Shown here: piece by piece, positions 21,326-29,236 of the stretch | Position numbering within the stretch: position 1 is the stretch's first letter | Layout: every line of letters starts with the position of its first letter | Assembly (NCBI GenBank): GCA_007118895.1 | Contig: SKQS01000228.1 | Coordinates: forward strand, 1 to 35,540 | DNA from: Wenzhouxiangella sp. | GTDB lineage: Bacteria; Pseudomonadota; Gammaproteobacteria; Xanthomonadales; Wenzhouxiangellaceae | Direction: 5' to 3' | Length of the DNA stretch: 35,540 nucleotides | Notes under the pieces: generated by a model | Databases searched by the model: none | What the model saw: only the letters and a program-made list of their open reading frames with translations | What the model was told of the DNA's origin: nothing | Made by a program: the position numbers and the translations under genes

Positions 21326-21697
21326 ATGAGTCAAAGGAGTATCACCGTCAGCATCAGCGGCCAGGCGCCGAACTATCGGGTCAGCCTGCAGCCGCCGGGG
21401 CCCTATACAATTACCGAGTCCAACTCGACCCTCAATCTGAGCCTGGATCAGGCAACCCTGCGCGGCGGCTTCCAGATGGCAGGCATCGGTTTCGACGGCC
21501 GCTACCACGACAACGATACCACCGACGCTGAAAGCCAGCTGACCGCCCGCGTCCAGTCCAGTCAGCAGCCCAACGATACCCTGGTGGTTACCGACCGGAA
21601 CTCGCAAACCGGGCAGTTCGAGTTCATCCTGCTCTATCGCGACCGATCCGGTGTCATCTACGGCCTTGACCCGGAAGTGCTCAACGACCAGCCCTGA
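21326..21697 (+). CDS. Small beta-rich protein, DP-EP-like
   Basis: A 123-residue soluble protein with no signal peptide and a strong AAGGAG at 21315-21320. Alternating strands, the TDRNSQTGQFEFILLYRD segment and the C-terminal DPEVLNDQP resemble the small DP-EP proteins known from marine gammaproteobacteria, in which a tail like DPEIxNxP follows a beta-sandwich. I recall that family only by pattern and hold the name loosely. It begins 16 bp after the kinase stop and so is probably co-transcribed; a kinase substrate or adaptor is possible but unproven. Confidence 0.6.
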   Translation: MSQRSITVSISGQAPNYRVSLQPPGPYTITESNSTLNLSLDQATLRGGFQMAGIGFDGRYHDNDTTDAESQLTARVQSSQQPNDTLVVTDRNSQTGQFEFILLYRDRSGVIYGLDPEVLNDQP

Positions 21698-21718
21698 GCC
21701 CGACCCGCAGGGCCCGGC

Positions 21719-21748
21719 ATGACAGCAACGCCGTCAAGCCGGTATAAT
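21719..21748 (+). promoter_or_regulatory. Promoter of the tRNA-Thr gene
   Basis: ATGACA at 21719-21724 (-35) and a consensus TATAAT at 21743-21748 (-10) are separated by 18 bp. The -10 box is 33 bp before the tRNA 5' end, and the stretch between them is GC-rich, as is usual for stringently controlled stable-RNA promoters. Confidence 0.75.
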
Positions 21749-21781
21749 CCACCGTCTTCGCGGCCCCCGCGCCCCACCCGT

Positions 21782-21857
21782 GCCGGTGTAGCTCAGTCGG
21801 TAGAGCATCGCATTCGTAATGCGCAGGTCGGCGGTTCGAATCCGTCCACCGGCACCA
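21782..21857 (+). tRNA. tRNA-Thr (anticodon CGT)
   Basis: A 76-nt cloverleaf with encoded CCA. Acceptor GCCGGTG (21782-21788) pairs with CACCGGC (21847-21853) and is followed by A and CCA. The D stem is GCTC/GAGC, the anticodon loop TTCGTAA carries CGT (codon ACG), and the T arm is GGCGG-TTCGAAT-CCGTC with one G-T wobble. The outermost anticodon-stem pair is a T-C mismatch. It has its own promoter, and its last 17-18 nt are repeated three more times downstream in the 185-bp array. Confidence 0.95.
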
Positions 21858-22414
21858 TTAAAGTTTCGAAGTCCTTGAACTTGCCGGGGCTACGGCCTAT
21901 CCGCAGTCGATTCGAACCGCCGACAATAAACAATCGGTTCGAACCGAGCGGCGCCAGCCGCGAGCTTGCTGAGCTGCGAAGCAGCTCAGGCCGAAGGCCA
22001 AGCGGCCTTCAAGGCCGCGCAGCCATCCGTCCACCGGCACCATTAAAGTTTCCAAGTCCTTGAACTTGCCGGGGCTACGGCCTATCCGTAGTCGATTCGA
22101 ACCGCCGACAATAAACAATCGGTTCGAACCGAGCGGCGTCAGCCGCGAGCTCGCTGAGCTGCGAAGCAGCTCAGGCCGAAGGCCAAGTGGCCTTCAAGGC
22201 CGCGCAGCCATCCGTCCACCGGCACCATTAAAGTTTCCAAGTCCCTGAACTTGCCGGGGCTACGGCCTATCCGTAGTCGATTCGAACCGCCGACAATAAA
22301 CAATCGGTTCGAGCCGAGCGGCGTCAGCCGCGAGCTCGCTGAGCTGCGAAGCAGCTCAGGCCGAAGGCCAAGCGGCCTTCAAGGCCGCGCAGCCATCCGT
22401 CCATCGGCACCATT
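21840..22414 (+). repeat. Three 185-bp tandem repeats containing the tRNA-Thr 3' end, plus a terminal stub
   Basis: TCCGTCCACCGGCACCATT begins at 21841 (the tRNA itself), 22026 and 22211, and with one change (CCATCGG) at 22396; the period is exactly 185 bp. Units 21841-22025, 22026-22210 and 22211-22395 differ by about five substitutions (1 versus 2) and three (2 versus 3), with no indels. Each unit has an inverted 16-nt copy of the T arm (21909-21924 in unit 1), a hairpin TTCGAACCG/CGGTTCGAA, a 9-bp hairpin CTGAGCTGC/GCAGCTCAG with loop GAA, and a hairpin GAAGGCC/GGCCTTC. The array fills the 556 bp between the tRNA and the convergent gene whose stop is at 22414-22416. E. coli tyrT has the same design (178-bp repeats, each with 19 bp of the tRNA end). 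Confidence 0.95.
21858..22413 (+). ncRNA. Possible rtT-like repeat RNA co-transcribed with tRNA-Thr
   Basis: The array lies directly behind a tRNA with a strong promoter and has no T-run terminator between tRNA and repeats, so the primary transcript probably extends into it. Each unit can fold into at least three stable hairpins. In E. coli tyrT, processing of the comparable trailer releases rtT RNA. By analogy, cleavage at each CCA-like boundary could release structured RNAs of about 170-185 nt. This is inference from architecture; short Arg-rich frames exist in the repeats but look incidental. Confidence 0.3.
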
Positions 22415-23817
22415 CAGAATTCGGAGCCACCCGGCTCATATTGATTATGGTCGGGTTGCTGCTGGTCCCTGGTCAGGCTCAGACGCGACCCGGGCAGCGG
22501 CAGGGCGAAGTATTCTTCCTCGCCGGATCGATGAAGATCGACAACCAGCCGGCCCTGTTCGGTGTCCAGGCGCAGCGGACGAGTGAGTGACTGCATCTGT
22601 TCTGGCAGCCGTGCGAACGCATCCTCCGGCGACTCATCGGCAGTATTTTCCTGCAGCCATAGCAAAGCCGAAAGCAGCCGTCTGCGCGCGCCATAATCGA
22701 GATGCTGAACGTGATAGCCGAGAAAGTGAGAAGAGGTGGCGATACCTGCCATCACGCAGCCCGACCAGTTGGAAAGGCAGCGCAGATCCAGTAGGCCCGG
22801 AGGCTGCAGTAATTCAGGCTTCGGGTCGTCGGCTGCCACGGACCGAATCATTTCTTCGCTGCACCACTGGGCATAAAGCGGCGCACTTCGGGCGATGCTC
22901 GCGTTTGGTCGATAGGTCAACGTGCTCAGCGGGTCAAGTCGGTAGTCGGATCCGCCACGAGGATCGGCGCTAGCGCCAATTTTCGCGATCAGAGCCGCCA
23001 GCATTCGGAACTCTCCCTGCATGGGTCGGCACATCCTCAGCATGTCTGCCTCAGGTGGGTGCAGCAGCGCCTGACAGTCGGCCGGCAGCGGGTGACCAGT
23101 CGGCAGTTCGGCAAGCATGTCGGCCAGCAGTCTGGGGTAGGTGCGCCCGGCAAAGGCCTGACCGATCATCCTTACCAGAAGCGTATCGGTATGCGTGCCG
23201 AGCCGTTGCCAGGCAAGCAGATCGCGGCACGTGCCTGATAGCGCTTCTTCCACTCGCTGTTCCGCGAAGGCCAGCGCATGCTCAGTCTGGCTGAAGCTGA
23301 CCATCTGGAACCAAGGCGTGGGTGCGATCAGGTCTGGCGCGAACAGGCTCTGGACATGATCATGTTCTGCCAACGCCGCAATGCGATCCAGCAGGCGACG
23401 ATGCTGCAATATCAGTTGCCGGTAGGCCATCGGGTTCGCGCGTACCCGCTCGAGGCAACCCATGTTTCTGGAGGGACAGAACAGGGCCTGATCTTCTGCA
23501 TTCGGACGCAAGTCCGGGTAGCGTTCAGCCGCCAGGGTCCGGAATGGCGGCTCCTGGAATGCGGTATGTGATTCTGGCCGGACTCGCTCCAGCGCCTTGA
23601 TGTCGGCTGCAATCACCGCATCTAATTCGGATTCAGGCACATCGTAGGCAAGCAGCCATAGAATGGGAAAGGCATTGGACCCTTCAAACTCCGTAGGGTC
23701 GGCCAGCACTGCCAGCGCCTGGAGCTGACCGTCGGTTGGTGGCAGGCGGCTGGAAAGCAGCCAAAGTGCGGCCACGATCAACAGCGGCATTATGGTAGAG
23801 ATCAAGAGATAACGCAT
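22414..23817 (-). CDS. Hypothetical protein with N-terminal membrane anchor
   Basis: A 467-residue protein whose first 25 residues (LLISTIMPLLIVAALWLLSS) form an uncleaved anchor or signal; the remainder is mainly helical, with several Cys (CPSRNMGC, CRDLLAW, CQALLHP, CRPMQGE, CSEEM, CLSNWSGC). No known domain is recognised. AGGAGG lies upstream, although 11 bases from the ATG, longer than ideal. It starts 18 bp after the stop of the acyltransferase gene, so the two are probably one operon. Its stop codon abuts the last stub of the tRNA repeat array, and transcription from the tRNA promoter would run into its 3' end. Confidence 0.7.
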   Translation of the reverse strand: MRYLLISTIMPLLIVAALWLLSSRLPPTDGQLQALAVLADPTEFEGSNAFPILWLLAYDVPESELDAVIAADIKALERVRPESHTAFQEPPFRTLAAERYPDLRPNAEDQALFCPSRNMGCLERVRANPMAYRQLILQHRRLLDRIAALAEHDHVQSLFAPDLIAPTPWFQMVSFSQTEHALAFAEQRVEEALSGTCRDLLAWQRLGTHTDTLLVRMIGQAFAGRTYPRLLADMLAELPTGHPLPADCQALLHPPEADMLRMCRPMQGEFRMLAALIAKIGASADPRGGSDYRLDPLSTLTYRPNASIARSAPLYAQWCSEEMIRSVAADDPKPELLQPPGLLDLRCLSNWSGCVMAGIATSSHFLGYHVQHLDYGARRRLLSALLWLQENTADESPEDAFARLPEQMQSLTRPLRLDTEQGRLVVDLHRSGEEEYFALPLPGSRLSLTRDQQQPDHNQYEPGGSEF

Positions 23818-26746: not shown

Positions 26747-26899
26747 TTGGCCTGATGCCCGGTGGAGGGAAACATCAGAACAATTTCACGGTTTTCGAAA
26801 GGTTTTCCCTGACGCTTTCGACACACTCTCCAGCAACGGCAGCTTGCCGGCCGCAATGGTCCGAGCCACAGCCGGGAAGTTCAATCAAGGAGAGTGACG

Positions 26900-29236
26900 A
26901 TGAAAGGGAAATTCTCACGCGCCCATTGCCGGTCCGGGCTCGTACTGGTCCTGTTGCTGATGAGCTGCAGCCCGCTGGTGGCTGCATCGATCAGCTACCA
27001 GGGGCAGCTAAAGAACGGCGGCAGCCCCTACACGGGCCTGGCCGATCTGTCCTTTGCGCTGTATGACCAGGTCCAGGGCGGCAGCCAGATCGGTACCACG
27101 CAGAATCGCCTGAACTGGCCGGTCAGCGACGGTCTGTTCCAGGTCGAGCTGGATTTCGGCCCAGGCGCCTTCGACGGCAGCGCGCGGTTTCTCGAAGTGC
27201 GGGTCAACGGCTCAGCCTTGAGCCCGCGCCAGGCGGTGACGGCAACACCAGTGGCACTGTTCGCGCTGGGCGGCAACCCGGGACCCGAGGGCCCGCCGGG
27301 GCCGCCAGGGCCGCCGGGCGATCCCGGACCGGACGGCTGGCGCCTGGACGGCAACGCTGGCACGGACTCGGCCACCCACTTCATCGGCACCACCGACAAC
27401 CAGGCGCTGGAACTGCGCACACGCAACACCCGAAATCTGCGCCTCCAGTCCAGTGCCACTCTATTCAATGGGATACCGGTGACCGCCAACGTGATCGCCG
27501 GATCTCACGCCAACGAAGTTTCGCCTGGCGCGCAAGGGGCGACAATCGCTGGCGGTGGGGCGCCCGCTGGCAGCAACTTTGTCAACCCGAGCGCTGCGCC
27601 AAACCGCGTCGTTAGTCACTTCAGCACAGTGGGTGGTGGTTTCGCCAATCTGGCGGGCGCTAGCGGAGGCCGGAACTTTGCAACCGTTGGCGGCGGTCAA
27701 CTAAACACTGCAAGTGGCTGGAGAAGCACCATCAGTGGTGGAAGCAACAACAGCGCCAGCGGCAGGGCAAGCACCATCGGCGGCGGCGAAGACAACACCA
27801 ACACAGGCTTCTGGAGCACTGTCGGCGGAGGCATAGAAAACACCGCCAGCGGCACCAACAGCGTCGTGGCCGGCGGCAGCGGCAACACTGCCAGCGGCTC
27901 CAGAAGCGTCGTGGCCGGCGGCGGCGGCAACACCGCCAGCGGCTCCAGAAGCACCATCGGCGGCGGCGAACTCAACTGTGCCGGCGGCTTCTGGTCCTGG
28001 GCCGGCGGGCATCGCGCCAAGGTGCGGCCGACGACCGATCCGCTACAGGGTAGCTGCAGCGGACTGAACTATCCCGGCGGCCAGGGCGATCAGGGCACTT
28101 TCGTCTGGGCTGACTCCCAGGACGCCGACTTTGTCTCCACCGGTTCGAACCAGTTCCTGATTCGTGCCAGCGGTGGTATGGGCATCAACACCACCAGCCC
28201 GTCAGCCGCCTTGCAGGTTGCCGGCAGCCTGATCGCCGGCGCCGGAAACAATCTGGCGCCGGGCGCGAACGCCGTGGTCACCGGCGGCCTGGACAACCAG
28301 GCAATCGGCGCGAACAGCCTGGTGGCTGGCCGCGGCGCGCGCGCCTTGCATGATGGCAGCATCGTGCTGGCCGATGGCAGCGAGACGCTGTTCGAATCCA
28401 CCGCCGACAACCAGTTCCTGGTCCGGGCCAGCGGCGGAGCCGGTTTCGGTCGGGCCCCGCAGGATTACTTTGAAATCTTCTCCGGTCAGGACGAGACCAG
28501 CGGCGCCTTCGGCTTCGGCGATGGCGCGTTGCGGGTAACCCTGGGCGATGGCAGCGGCGGCGTAGCGACCCGTTTCAGAGTGCTCGGCAACGGCGGCGTG
28601 GCCGTTGGCAGCGGCTACAACGGCACTGGCGTGCCGGATCGCGGATTGCGGGTATTCGGCGAGGTGCAGCTGGACAACCTGGGCAACGAAGGCGGCAGCA
28701 GCCTGTGCCGCAACAGCGAAAACCGCATTTCCGACTGTTCCTCCAGCCGCCGCTACAAGCAGGATATCGAGCTGCTGGAAGGCGATGAAGCCCTGCGCCT
28801 GATCAATGCCCTGCGCACGGTGCGCTATCAATGGATCAGCAGCGGTCGCGCCGACATCGGCCTGGTGGCCGAGGAAGTGGCCGAAATCGTCCCGGAGATC
28901 GTCACCTACAATGCCGATGGCCAGGTCGAGGGCTTCGAATACAACCGTCTCGGCCCGCTGCTGGTGGCAGGCTTACAGGCCCAGGCCGATGCCAGCCAGG
29001 CGCGTTTCGCTGAACTGGCTGCCGAAAACGCCGAGCTGCGGGCGAAGCTGTCGGTTTTGATGATCCAGTCCGGAAAGCTGCGCGAACTGGCCGACCGCAA
29101 CGCCGAACTGGAACGCAGGCTGGAGCTGACGGAACGAGGCCAGCTGGAGAAGGCCGACCTGGCCAGGCGACTGGCAGCGCTTGAATCGCTGCTGGTGGAG
29201 ACAGGTCCCTTACTGGTTGGCAAGCAGGTCGAGTGA
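26900..29236 (+). CDS. Secreted tail-fibre-like protein with S74 intramolecular chaperone domain
   Basis: 778 residues. In order: a signal peptide (to about VAA, residue 29); an N-terminal beta domain; six collagen-type GXY triplets (about 128-146); a beta-roll region with eight or so 15-residue repeats such as TVGGGIENTASGTNS (243-367); an ALQVAGSL/NQFLIRASGG stalk; a C-terminal Peptidase_S74 domain with SSRRYKQDI (S615, K620, matching the Ser-Lys spacing of phage endosialidase chaperones); and a C-terminal coiled coil (about 700-765). The S74 domain trimerises fibres and then cleaves itself off. The start is the ATG at 26900 with AAGGAGAG upstream. No phage genes flank it, so it is likely a trimeric surface or secreted fibre and not a prophage remnant. 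Confidence 0.85.
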   Translation: MKGKFSRAHCRSGLVLVLLLMSCSPLVAASISYQGQLKNGGSPYTGLADLSFALYDQVQGGSQIGTTQNRLNWPVSDGLFQVELDFGPGAFDGSARFLEVRVNGSALSPRQAVTATPVALFALGGNPGPEGPPGPPGPPGDPGPDGWRLDGNAGTDSATHFIGTTDNQALELRTRNTRNLRLQSSATLFNGIPVTANVIAGSHANEVSPGAQGATIAGGGAPAGSNFVNPSAAPNRVVSHFSTVGGGFANLAGASGGRNFATVGGGQLNTASGWRSTISGGSNNSASGRASTIGGGEDNTNTGFWSTVGGGIENTASGTNSVVAGGSGNTASGSRSVVAGGGGNTASGSRSTIGGGELNCAGGFWSWAGGHRAKVRPTTDPLQGSCSGLNYPGGQGDQGTFVWADSQDADFVSTGSNQFLIRASGGMGINTTSPSAALQVAGSLIAGAGNNLAPGANAVVTGGLDNQAIGANSLVAGRGARALHDGSIVLADGSETLFESTADNQFLVRASGGAGFGRAPQDYFEIFSGQDETSGAFGFGDGALRVTLGDGSGGVATRFRVLGNGGVAVGSGYNGTGVPDRGLRVFGEVQLDNLGNEGGSSLCRNSENRISDCSSSRRYKQDIELLEGDEALRLINALRTVRYQWISSGRADIGLVAEEVAEIVPEIVTYNADGQVEGFEYNRLGPLLVAGLQAQADASQARFAELAAENAELRAKLSVLMIQSGKLRELADRNAELERRLELTERGQLEKADLARRLAALESLLVETGPLLVGKQVE
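27626..28010 (+). repeat. 45-bp coding repeats in the fibre gene
   Basis: Eight or so consecutive 15-codon units encode GGGxxNTASGxxS-type repeats. The most similar pair, encoding VVAGGSGNTASGSRS and VVAGGGGNTASGSRS, is nearly identical in DNA around 27865-27955, which suggests recent duplication. The sequence fits a beta-roll of the kind found in YadA-like heads. Confidence 0.8.

Follow-up and report, generated by a model that had tools for sequence, protein, structure and literature searches.

Tandem repeats behind a tRNA-Thr gene of Wenzhouxiangella: probable RtT-like units with a hairpin core placed in the tRNA T-loop

Three 185-bp units behind tRNA-Thr(CGT)

The DNA analyzed here, referred to as the window, is a 35,540-nucleotide stretch of Wenzhouxiangella sp. 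(assembly GCA_007118895.1, contig SKQS01000228.1), and our subject is a tandem array that directly follows an intact tRNA-Thr(CGT) gene on its forward strand. An initial annotation, made from the letters alone, had described three 185-bp units at this position, and ARAGORN, Tandem Repeats Finder and a repeat search bore this out. Tandem Repeats Finder assigned to 21840-22414 a period of 185 with 3.1 copies, 97% matches, 0% indels and a score of 1094, while the repeat search placed copies at 21840-22044, 22025-22229 and 22210-22414, spaced by 185 and again 185 bp, the second and third sharing 98% and 97% identity with the first. The repetition of the tRNA terminus, likewise part of that annotation, was confirmed: each unit closes with the last 18 nt of the tRNA, ATCCGTCCACCGGCACCA (original at 21840-21857), which recurs at 22025-22042, 22210-22227 and, with one C-to-T change, 22395-22412.

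Between these termini, the units share a fixed internal order, in which the spacer is followed by an inverted T-arm copy, the linker AATAAACAAT, the segment CGGTTCGA, an 82-nt hairpin core, and finally ATCC with the remainder of the tRNA end. The core thus splits the T-loop of a partial tRNA copy exactly, with GGTTCGA on one side and ATCC on the other, and all three units carry an exact 16-nt inverted copy of the V-region and T-arm of the tRNA (21827-21842). Both the inverted copy and the T-loop position are new relative to the initial annotation. The whole of unit 1 folds at -81.4 kcal/mol (z -4.09). The spacer of unit 3 contains AAGTCCCTGAACTT (22239-22252), an exact 14-nt match to an E. coli tyrV unit (L190) at a nearly equal distance from the end of the tRNA; at this place units 1 and 2 each depart from it by one base, and, with one mismatch allowed, no other fetched locus matched except the E. 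coli-type L315. This may be a chance match.

A scan of 21600-22700 on both strands returned three terminator-like sites, against a shuffle mean of 1.0: a weak hairpin just 3' of the array and two sites on the reverse strand inside units 1 and 2, with none on the forward strand inside the array. Because a promoter-like site lies upstream and the units lack an intrinsic forward-strand terminator, the array is probably read with the tRNA. The genome of origin (G000) is a 288-contig draft, 95% complete, and the array copy number could therefore be the assembler's estimate. The features are collected in Table 1. Elsewhere in the window, 45-bp tandem repeats occupy 27689-27967, within an open reading frame at 26894-29236.

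Table 1. Features of the tRNA-Thr(CGT) locus in window coordinates (R1, the covariance model of Wenzhouxiangellaceae cores introduced below)
Feature	Position	Strand	Basis or remark
Sigma-70-like promoter, ATGACA-18-TATAAT, upstream of the tRNA	21719-21748	+	11/12 consensus positions; 1 in 21600-22700 vs shuffle mean 0.3
Intact tRNA-Thr(CGT) gene, CCA encoded	21782-21857	+	ARAGORN; Rfam tRNA model, 72.3 bits
Unit 1, 185 bp: spacer, inverted T-arm, A-rich linker, T-arm 5' copy, core, tRNA 3' end	21858-22042	+	
Unit 1, inverted copy of tRNA 21827-21842, GATTCGAACCGCCGAC	21909-21924	+	16/16 complementary
Unit 1, linker AATAAACAAT	21925-21934	+	Same or close variant behind tRNA-Arg(ACG), Arg(CCT) and Thr(TGT) of the same genome, by eye
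Unit 1, copy of T-arm 5' strand, CGGTTCGA	21935-21942	+	
Unit 1, core, hairpin-rich T-loop insert (ACCGAGC...GCAGCC)	21943-22024	+	R1 match 21936-22034, 86.7 bits; holds by construction, this core being one of the 29 that made R1
Unit 1, copy of tRNA 3' end (ATCC...CCA)	22025-22042	+	
Unit 2, 185 bp	22043-22227	+	97% identity to unit 1; R1 match 22121-22219
Unit 2, inverted T-arm copy	22094-22109	+	
Unit 2, core	22128-22209	+	R1
Unit 2, copy of tRNA 3' end	22210-22227	+	
Unit 3, 185 bp	22228-22412	+	96% identity to unit 1; R1 match 22306-22404
Unit 3, inverted T-arm copy	22279-22294	+	
Unit 3, core	22313-22394	+	R1
Final copy of tRNA 3' end	22395-22412	+	One mismatch
Weak terminator-like hairpin just 3' of the array	22424-22437	+	Scan of 21600-22700

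Distribution and kinship with the E. coli tyrT/rtT repeats

Relatives of the unit recur in the same genome behind tRNA-Arg(CCT), Thr(TGT), Ser(GCT), Ser(GGA) and Arg(ACG), and also at contig ends; at several of these loci, the inverted and closing segments visibly copy the local tRNA and not tRNA-Thr. The 14-mer GGTTCGAACCGAGC occurs 124 times in 30 of 43 Wenzhouxiangellaceae genomes (4 occurrences for its backward control). The initial annotation had suggested looking for the unit in related genomes and behind tRNA-Thr(CGT), and a DNA search with the unit was positive in 28 of 61 genomes, all of them Wenzhouxiangellaceae, and in none of 24 other genomes of the order. Cores at tRNA-Thr(CGT) were present in G000, G005, G009 and G016 and absent in the single-contig genomes G012 and G022. 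A longer pattern, run over a collection of 84,980 species, retrieved 33 stretches, comprising 24 from Wenzhouxiangella or Wenzhouxiangellaceae, 7 assigned to a broader group only, and 2 from Bacteroidales. A single pattern match in a class-wide search (G377) had no tRNA in its locus, was probably due to chance, and was set aside.

For a finer survey, we used R1, a covariance model built from 29 Wenzhouxiangellaceae cores (30 selected, L090 omitted), which gave 13 matches in the genome of origin at E<=0.01 and 108 matches at E<=0.05 in nine of ten further family genomes, with none in G002. From these, 114 cores were examined, namely 106 of the 108 (in fetched loci) and 8 of the 13. An intact same-strand tRNA lies within 1.3 kb of 101 of them, the core being downstream of the tRNA in 75 cases and upstream in 26, and five of the 13 cores without such a neighbor belong to one long array in G004. 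Across ten family genomes, the nearest intact tRNAs represent eleven tRNA species; the initial annotation knew of no described version on tRNA-Thr, which is the nearest tRNA for 14 of the 101 linked cores (9 CGT, 5 TGT). R1 is tuned to Wenzhouxiangellaceae: among 249 genomes of the phylum, only 7 matched at E<=0.01, the genome of origin included, a smaller share than that found for the RtT family in the class, and its null result at the same threshold in 148 Bacteroidota genomes is uninformative, since G431, which holds a known copy, was also missed.

The long G004 array (L079, G004:C33:20000-38800) lies on the reverse strand behind tRNA-Arg(ACG) and has 8 cores over about 6.9 kb together with two long inserts. 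One insert codes for a subtilase (Peptidase_S8, E 1e-26), both start with a stretch that is similar by eye, and ahead of the final core stands a longer stretch of tRNA, beginning at the anticodon loop.

The tyrT repeats of E. coli have been known for decades and are not known to have an accepted origin; rtT RNA, of about 171 nt, is described as released from the tRNA transcript. In E. coli K-12, the tyrV unit runs from the tRNA 3' end through a spacer, GGGGAAGGATGAGAAGCTTCGACC, AAGGTTCGA and a hairpin core with CCCGAAGGG to ...GAGTAATCC and again the tRNA end, GGGGAAGGATGAGAAGCTTCGACC being an imperfect inverse of the 3' half of tRNA-Tyr; by annotation, the Tpr protamine-like reading frame lies within the unit. 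R1 matched four E. coli tyrT/tyrV units (E 5.2e-7, 1.1e-6, 7.5e-6 and 2.4e-4) in a search set of 111.5 kb from 36 sources, which yielded 39 matches in all at E<=1.

In the opposite direction, the Rfam model of the RtT family (RF00391) matched 16 of 23 Wenzhouxiangellaceae genomes at E<=1. The best of these matches (60.7 bits, in G002) is the only one above the cut-off of 45 and lies directly behind tRNA-Tyr. Thirty of the 41 family matches overlap loci that the pattern or R1 had also detected, and two of the other 11 stand behind tRNA-Tyr and tRNA-Gln of G002; in six family loci, the model gave only three matches, all sub-threshold (23.8, 21.9 and 21.0 bits). Across the class, 73 of 274 Gammaproteobacteria matched at E<=0.1, with 18 above the cut-off. 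Among 30 RtT loci fetched, a tRNA is present in 26, and in 21 its 3' end recurs within 2.5 kb with no more than one mismatch; the tRNAs involved are Tyr, Gln and Ser, to which later loci add Lys as well as a Ser in another class of the phylum.

The window units resemble RtT loci in lying directly behind a tRNA on the same strand and ending in its 3' end, and they share a structured core with the E. coli units by way of R1, whose score derives partly from tRNA-derived ends, and of the RF00391 matches within the family. They are not classed under RF00391, because they fall short of the RtT gathering cut-off (45 bits), only the tRNA model having reached its cut-off in the Rfam scan of the window. 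We conclude from these sequence comparisons that the window units are probably RtT-like, with a core shared with E. coli by descent. The likeness to tyrT/rtT that the initial annotation had drawn therefore holds, and more strongly than proposed, since the anatomy corresponds segment for segment, R1 detects the E. coli units, and RF00391 matches copies in the same family. The explanation it had offered, multiple origins or a general slippage or recombination mechanism at tRNA ends, is not the best reading, as the core appears to be shared by descent and the tRNA-derived parts to be local.

Cores in T-loops with flanks tailored to the local tRNA

The hairpin-rich core occupies a T-loop, the tRNA copy around it being redundant, partial or broken; in most cases examined, an intact copy of that tRNA lies nearby. 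Besides the arrays downstream of tRNAs, we recovered an upstream form, in which near-full-length tRNA copies, often in tandem, lie 5' of the intact gene with a core in the T-loop and the acceptor 3' end lost; it is found at Arg(CCG), Ser(GCT), Ser(CGA) and Ser(GGA). On the reverse strand of G014 (L296, 829-1240), a broken tRNA-Arg copy just upstream of an intact tRNA-Arg(CCT) has three successive cores, indicating that cores can stack inside one T-loop. The two Bacteroidales stretches (L127, 3450-3680; L132, 1637-1900), each the only copy of the core pattern in its genome, show the same arrangement for tRNA-Cys: the T-loop of one copy holds an insert of 44-45 nt, and the intact gene follows closely on its 3' side. 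After in silico removal of the core, 17 of 459 candidates gave an ARAGORN tRNA call spanning the junction, and, with the intact tRNAs L108 and L207 removed and L305, which had been counted twice, taken once, 14 distinct disrupted copies remain (12 Wenzhouxiangellaceae, 2 Bacteroidales). For one spliced copy (L258), the tRNA was called without a defined anticodon. Displacing the cut by -6, -3, +3 and +6 nt left 1, 1, 10 and 2 of the 17 still called as tRNA. A pattern restricted to the core gave 14 matches in four of eight genomes, and the five in the genome of origin and the two in Bacteroidales were units or T-loop copies, the other seven, in G009, lying elsewhere. The T-loop is thus the main place of the cores seen, and not the sole one.

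The sequences flanking the core match the local tRNA and in many cases include an inverted copy of its T-arm. We compared, in the first unit of each of 72 arrays, the two 6-mers that flank the inverted T-loop anchor with the array's own tRNA. The anchor was present in 53 arrays, and the flanking 6-mers matched their own tRNA at a mean of 4.00 and 3.23 of 6 positions, compared with 2.70 and 2.23 for shuffled tRNAs, neither value being reached in 5000 shuffles. Most tRNA-Thr and tRNA-Arg arrays match at 5 or 6 of 6 positions on the T-stem side, and the tRNA-Tyr and tRNA-Gln arrays of other Gammaproteobacteria match better on the acceptor side. At L035, a variant T-arm in tRNA-Thr(CGT) is accompanied by the matching variant in its inverted copy. 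Behind tRNA-Arg(ACG) of G004, the tRNA 3' half, spacer and terminator are, by eye, near-perfectly palindromic with the inverted copy, giving a direct-inverted-direct layout of the kind that fold-back copying would leave.

Similarity among cores stands at 0.283 for different tRNAs of the same genome, 0.214 for the same tRNA in different genomes, and 0.184 across both, and the within-genome excess was reached by none of 1000 label shuffles. Among 90 cores, the nearest relative lies at another tRNA of the same genome for 53 and at the same tRNA of another genome for 36, with one tie. An earlier script, run on 65 cores with wrong starts, had given the reverse order (0.146 for same genome and different tRNA vs 0.210 for different genome and same tRNA) and is superseded by the R1 coordinates. 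This pattern of core similarity fits movement or gene conversion within genomes. As candidate movers, integron integrases and Y1/REP-associated tyrosine transposases (RAYTs) were both rejected, since neither appears to track the arrays: integrases exceeded the curated cut-off in 21 of 43 family genomes, the genome of origin included, with a second set of lower-scoring relatives; Y1 transposases matched in 19 of the 43, with no RAYT/Y1 match at E<=0.001 in the genome of origin (a draft, 95% complete); and G024 has arrays with neither enzyme above the cut-off.

Viral contigs yielded no match to the Wenzhouxiangella-type core pattern and four contigs (L313-L316) with the E. coli-type pattern. L313, an IMG/VR contig, ends in a tRNA 3' half like the tRNA-Lys of L225 and has three RtT-like units; L314 and L315 show the E. 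coli tyrT repeat sequence, and the units of L316 have a tRNA-Ser-like end. ARAGORN called no tRNA in any of the four, and their units are perhaps host flanks, with L313 perhaps the host side of a prophage. The window array matched 645 phage records, none over 80% of the query, and, among the ten of these matches listed, only bases 1-85 of 633, essentially the tRNA, were covered; the units had no match in plasmids.

Competing explanations and known systems

We favor, with moderate confidence, the reading that an RtT-like insertion element of tRNA T-loops was amplified in tandem to give the array. A core would enter the T-loop of a duplicated tRNA, as the distribution suggests, and be tolerated there, the lineage surviving since one intact tRNA remains. 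Cores would then spread, or be converted, between the tRNA loci of one genome as DNA elements. Fold-back copying of the tRNA 3' half would supply the inverted segment, in some loci around the terminator hairpin of the tRNA, and recombination between identical tRNA 3' ends would multiply the 185-bp units. A 175-bp variable-number tandem repeat listed for Salmonella rtT RNA (PMC2658671, in the text available) shows such copy changes in a relative. The window array would probably be transcribed with its tRNA and cut to RNAs of about 185 nt, as for rtT, with no function in the cell assumed. More tentatively, the E. coli tyrT/rtT repeats and the window array may both be members of a single dispersed family, made up of mobile hairpin modules that reside mainly in tRNA T-loops. 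Such modules would insert between bases 58 and 60 of a duplicated tRNA, have their flanks rebuilt by fold-back copying to match the tRNA entered, move from one tRNA locus of a genome to another, be able to jump into the loops of other hairpins, and occasionally anchor gene-bearing arrays.

Several observations weigh against the T-loop insertion reading. The search patterns and R1 include T-loop ends, so that cores elsewhere are under-counted, and, as these ends are letters common to many tRNAs, part of the R1 score does not come from the core. The seven core-only matches in G009 lie elsewhere: the six examined are shortened cores on contig C2 (L069-L071), each standing alone and at a distance from tRNAs, where they occupy the loop of a different palindromic repeat (CCCAAA...GAGTTTGGG and variants). 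Three of the 17 spliced candidates were already called as tRNA with the core retained, and two, as noted, are intact tRNAs. The inverted anchor is missing in 19 of the 72 arrays, and a test on the whole 20-nt segment was weak because tRNAs share T-loops: the own isotype came out strictly ahead of all others in 11 of 93 units, against a mean of 1.3 with random labels over 21 repeats; it was replaced by the 6-mer test. Only certain tRNA-Arg(ACG) arrays point plainly to a fold-back origin, and the spacer in the window is not palindromic. No window unit is among the RF00391 matches at E<=1, the one match in its genome (18.3 bits) lying at C53. The two Bacteroidales inserts (R1 E 6.3e-4 and 1.6e-3) came from a pattern with core letters, and the other Gammaproteobacteria were supplied to R1 via RF00391; neither set is hence independent. 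The 36 of 90 cores with their closest relative at the same tRNA of another genome count here too, and shared base composition or gene conversion could underlie the within-genome likeness. The integrase and Y1 transposase searches of the 43 family genomes tied no mover to the element. Finally, the arrays without a terminator and the tandem GA motif reported for RtT (PMC7657543, in the text available) would also fit an RNA function.

That function is the core of a rival account, rather unlikely in our estimate, in which the units are small RNAs of a tRNA operon, released from the tRNA transcript to act in trans or as sponges, with selection on the RNA keeping the hairpins. The promoter-like site and the lack of a forward-strand terminator inside the window array agree with it, as do covarying stems: in all 29 sequences, the CCGNAGG hairpin preserves its outer pair (CG 14, UA 12, GC 3). 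RtT RNAs were also seen on northern blots in Actinobacillus pleuropneumoniae, and the portion of that source available states that the family modulates the stringent response (PMC4986893). Against this, an intrinsic terminator (hairpin plus T-run) stands between the tRNA and the first core in 27 of 72 arrays by a simple rule that misses some (L073, for example, by eye), suggesting that arrays are not generally co-transcribed with their tRNA; for 26 of the 101 linked cores, the nearest intact tRNA lies downstream, and several of these cores sit inside disrupted copies; and core presence differs among genomes of one family. Triloops of the form C(GNA)G, which are unusually stable in DNA, are strongly enriched, accounting for 81 of 167 hairpins in the family and 36 of 66 outside it, in other Gammaproteobacteria, compared with 28 of 2089 in the background; under both RNA and DNA parameters, ViennaRNA gave no bonus to C(GNA)G over other triloops. 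Rfam sX4 matches near tRNA-Ser proved to be tRNA-Ser itself; at one of them (L275, 560-1300, in G016), RF02223 (sX4) aligns with tRNA-Ser and its trailer, and sX4 may be a tRNA-Ser precursor, not a separate small RNA.

An integron-like, tRNA-anchored cassette system, with the tRNA T-loop as attI and the core plus inverted T-arm as the folded recombination site, seems to us very improbable. The G004 tRNA-Arg(ACG) array, with its cores and its long inserts, one of them coding, would suit such a system, as would structured sites in tandem arrays, but successive tRNA-end copies are mostly 130-270 bp apart in mapped arrays, leaving no room for genes, arrays occur in genomes without an integron integrase above the cut-off (G010 and G024, for example), and the T-loop, by eye, does not fit the GTTRRRY box. 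Independent convergent duplication by slippage or recombination at a tRNA end, with mere resemblance to tyrT, is very improbable: tandem amplification between 18-bp direct repeats is easy and spacers differ strongly between tRNAs, yet the core is recognized across tRNAs and genera by models built from either side, and its T-loop position is exact. An assembly artifact is extremely improbable, for although the genome of origin is split into 288 contigs, at whose ends several other copies are found, the same kind of array is present in the single-contig genomes G012, G016 (3,844,697 bases) and G022.

The tyrT repeats, rtT RNA, RtT in Pasteurellaceae (PMC4986893) and the rtT likeness of some bacterial interspersed mosaic elements (BIMEs; PMC2965389) are known already, as far as the available text of these sources goes. 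In the literature searched, mostly open rather than subscription papers and in part only as excerpts, we found no description of the T-loop position, the tRNA-matched inverted copies, the upstream disrupted-tRNA form or the expansion in Wenzhouxiangellaceae. Treating the tyrT repeats as part of a wide family, marked by T-loop site, matched inverted copies and pairs of intact and broken tRNAs, turns a single-locus curiosity into a comparative system in which the question 'RNA gene or mobile DNA?' becomes directly testable. This view also suggests that an insert in a tRNA T-loop, and not one RNA gene, can be what an RtT annotation denotes, and it brings to light broken tRNA copies that could confuse tRNA counts.

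Among known systems, integron attC arrays likewise present arrays of structured sites, and the G004 tRNA-Arg array is the one case here in which cargo was noted; they differ in that our arrays have mostly gene-less units (the 185-bp window units bear no genes), no integrase that appears to track them, and a tRNA as anchor. The tRNA fragments of integrative elements (PMC9897764, in the text available) resemble them as partial tRNA copies beside a complete one, whereas here the units, mostly 130-190 bp, have no room for an integrase, that of the window being only 185 bp with no integrase gene inside the duplicated segment, and they involve many tRNAs, a shared T-loop core and an inverted copy. 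Repetitive extragenic palindromic (REP) sequences and BIMEs with their RAYTs are also short, many-copy hairpin elements; excerpts from the sources note the rtT likeness of some enterobacterial BIMEs (PMC2965389) and list rttR as containing a REP (PMC12306157). The cores described here are, in contrast, tied mainly to tRNA T-loops, with Y1 transposase matches in 19 of 43 family genomes and none in the genome of origin. Arrc20 and Arrc21 of A. pleuropneumoniae (PMC4986893) belong to the RtT family, lie beside tRNA genes and yield RNA seen on northern blots, but they are reported as small RNAs upstream of tRNA-Asn and tRNA-Lys, and the available portion of that source mentions neither a T-loop position nor a tRNA-matched inverted copy. 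Closest are the 178-bp repeats of E. coli tyrT/tyrV, which share with the window array the place directly behind a tRNA, tandem units each closing with the tRNA 3' end, an inverted copy of the tRNA 3' half (imperfect in E. coli), and the order GGTTCGA, hairpin core with CCGAAGG, ATCC and tRNA end. The window array is distinguished by tRNA-Thr(CGT) in place of tRNA-Tyr, a core diverged below the RtT cut-off, an exact inverted T-arm copy and the AATAAACAAT linker, and the Wenzhouxiangellaceae cores as a group by their eleven tRNA species and the disrupted tRNA copies upstream.

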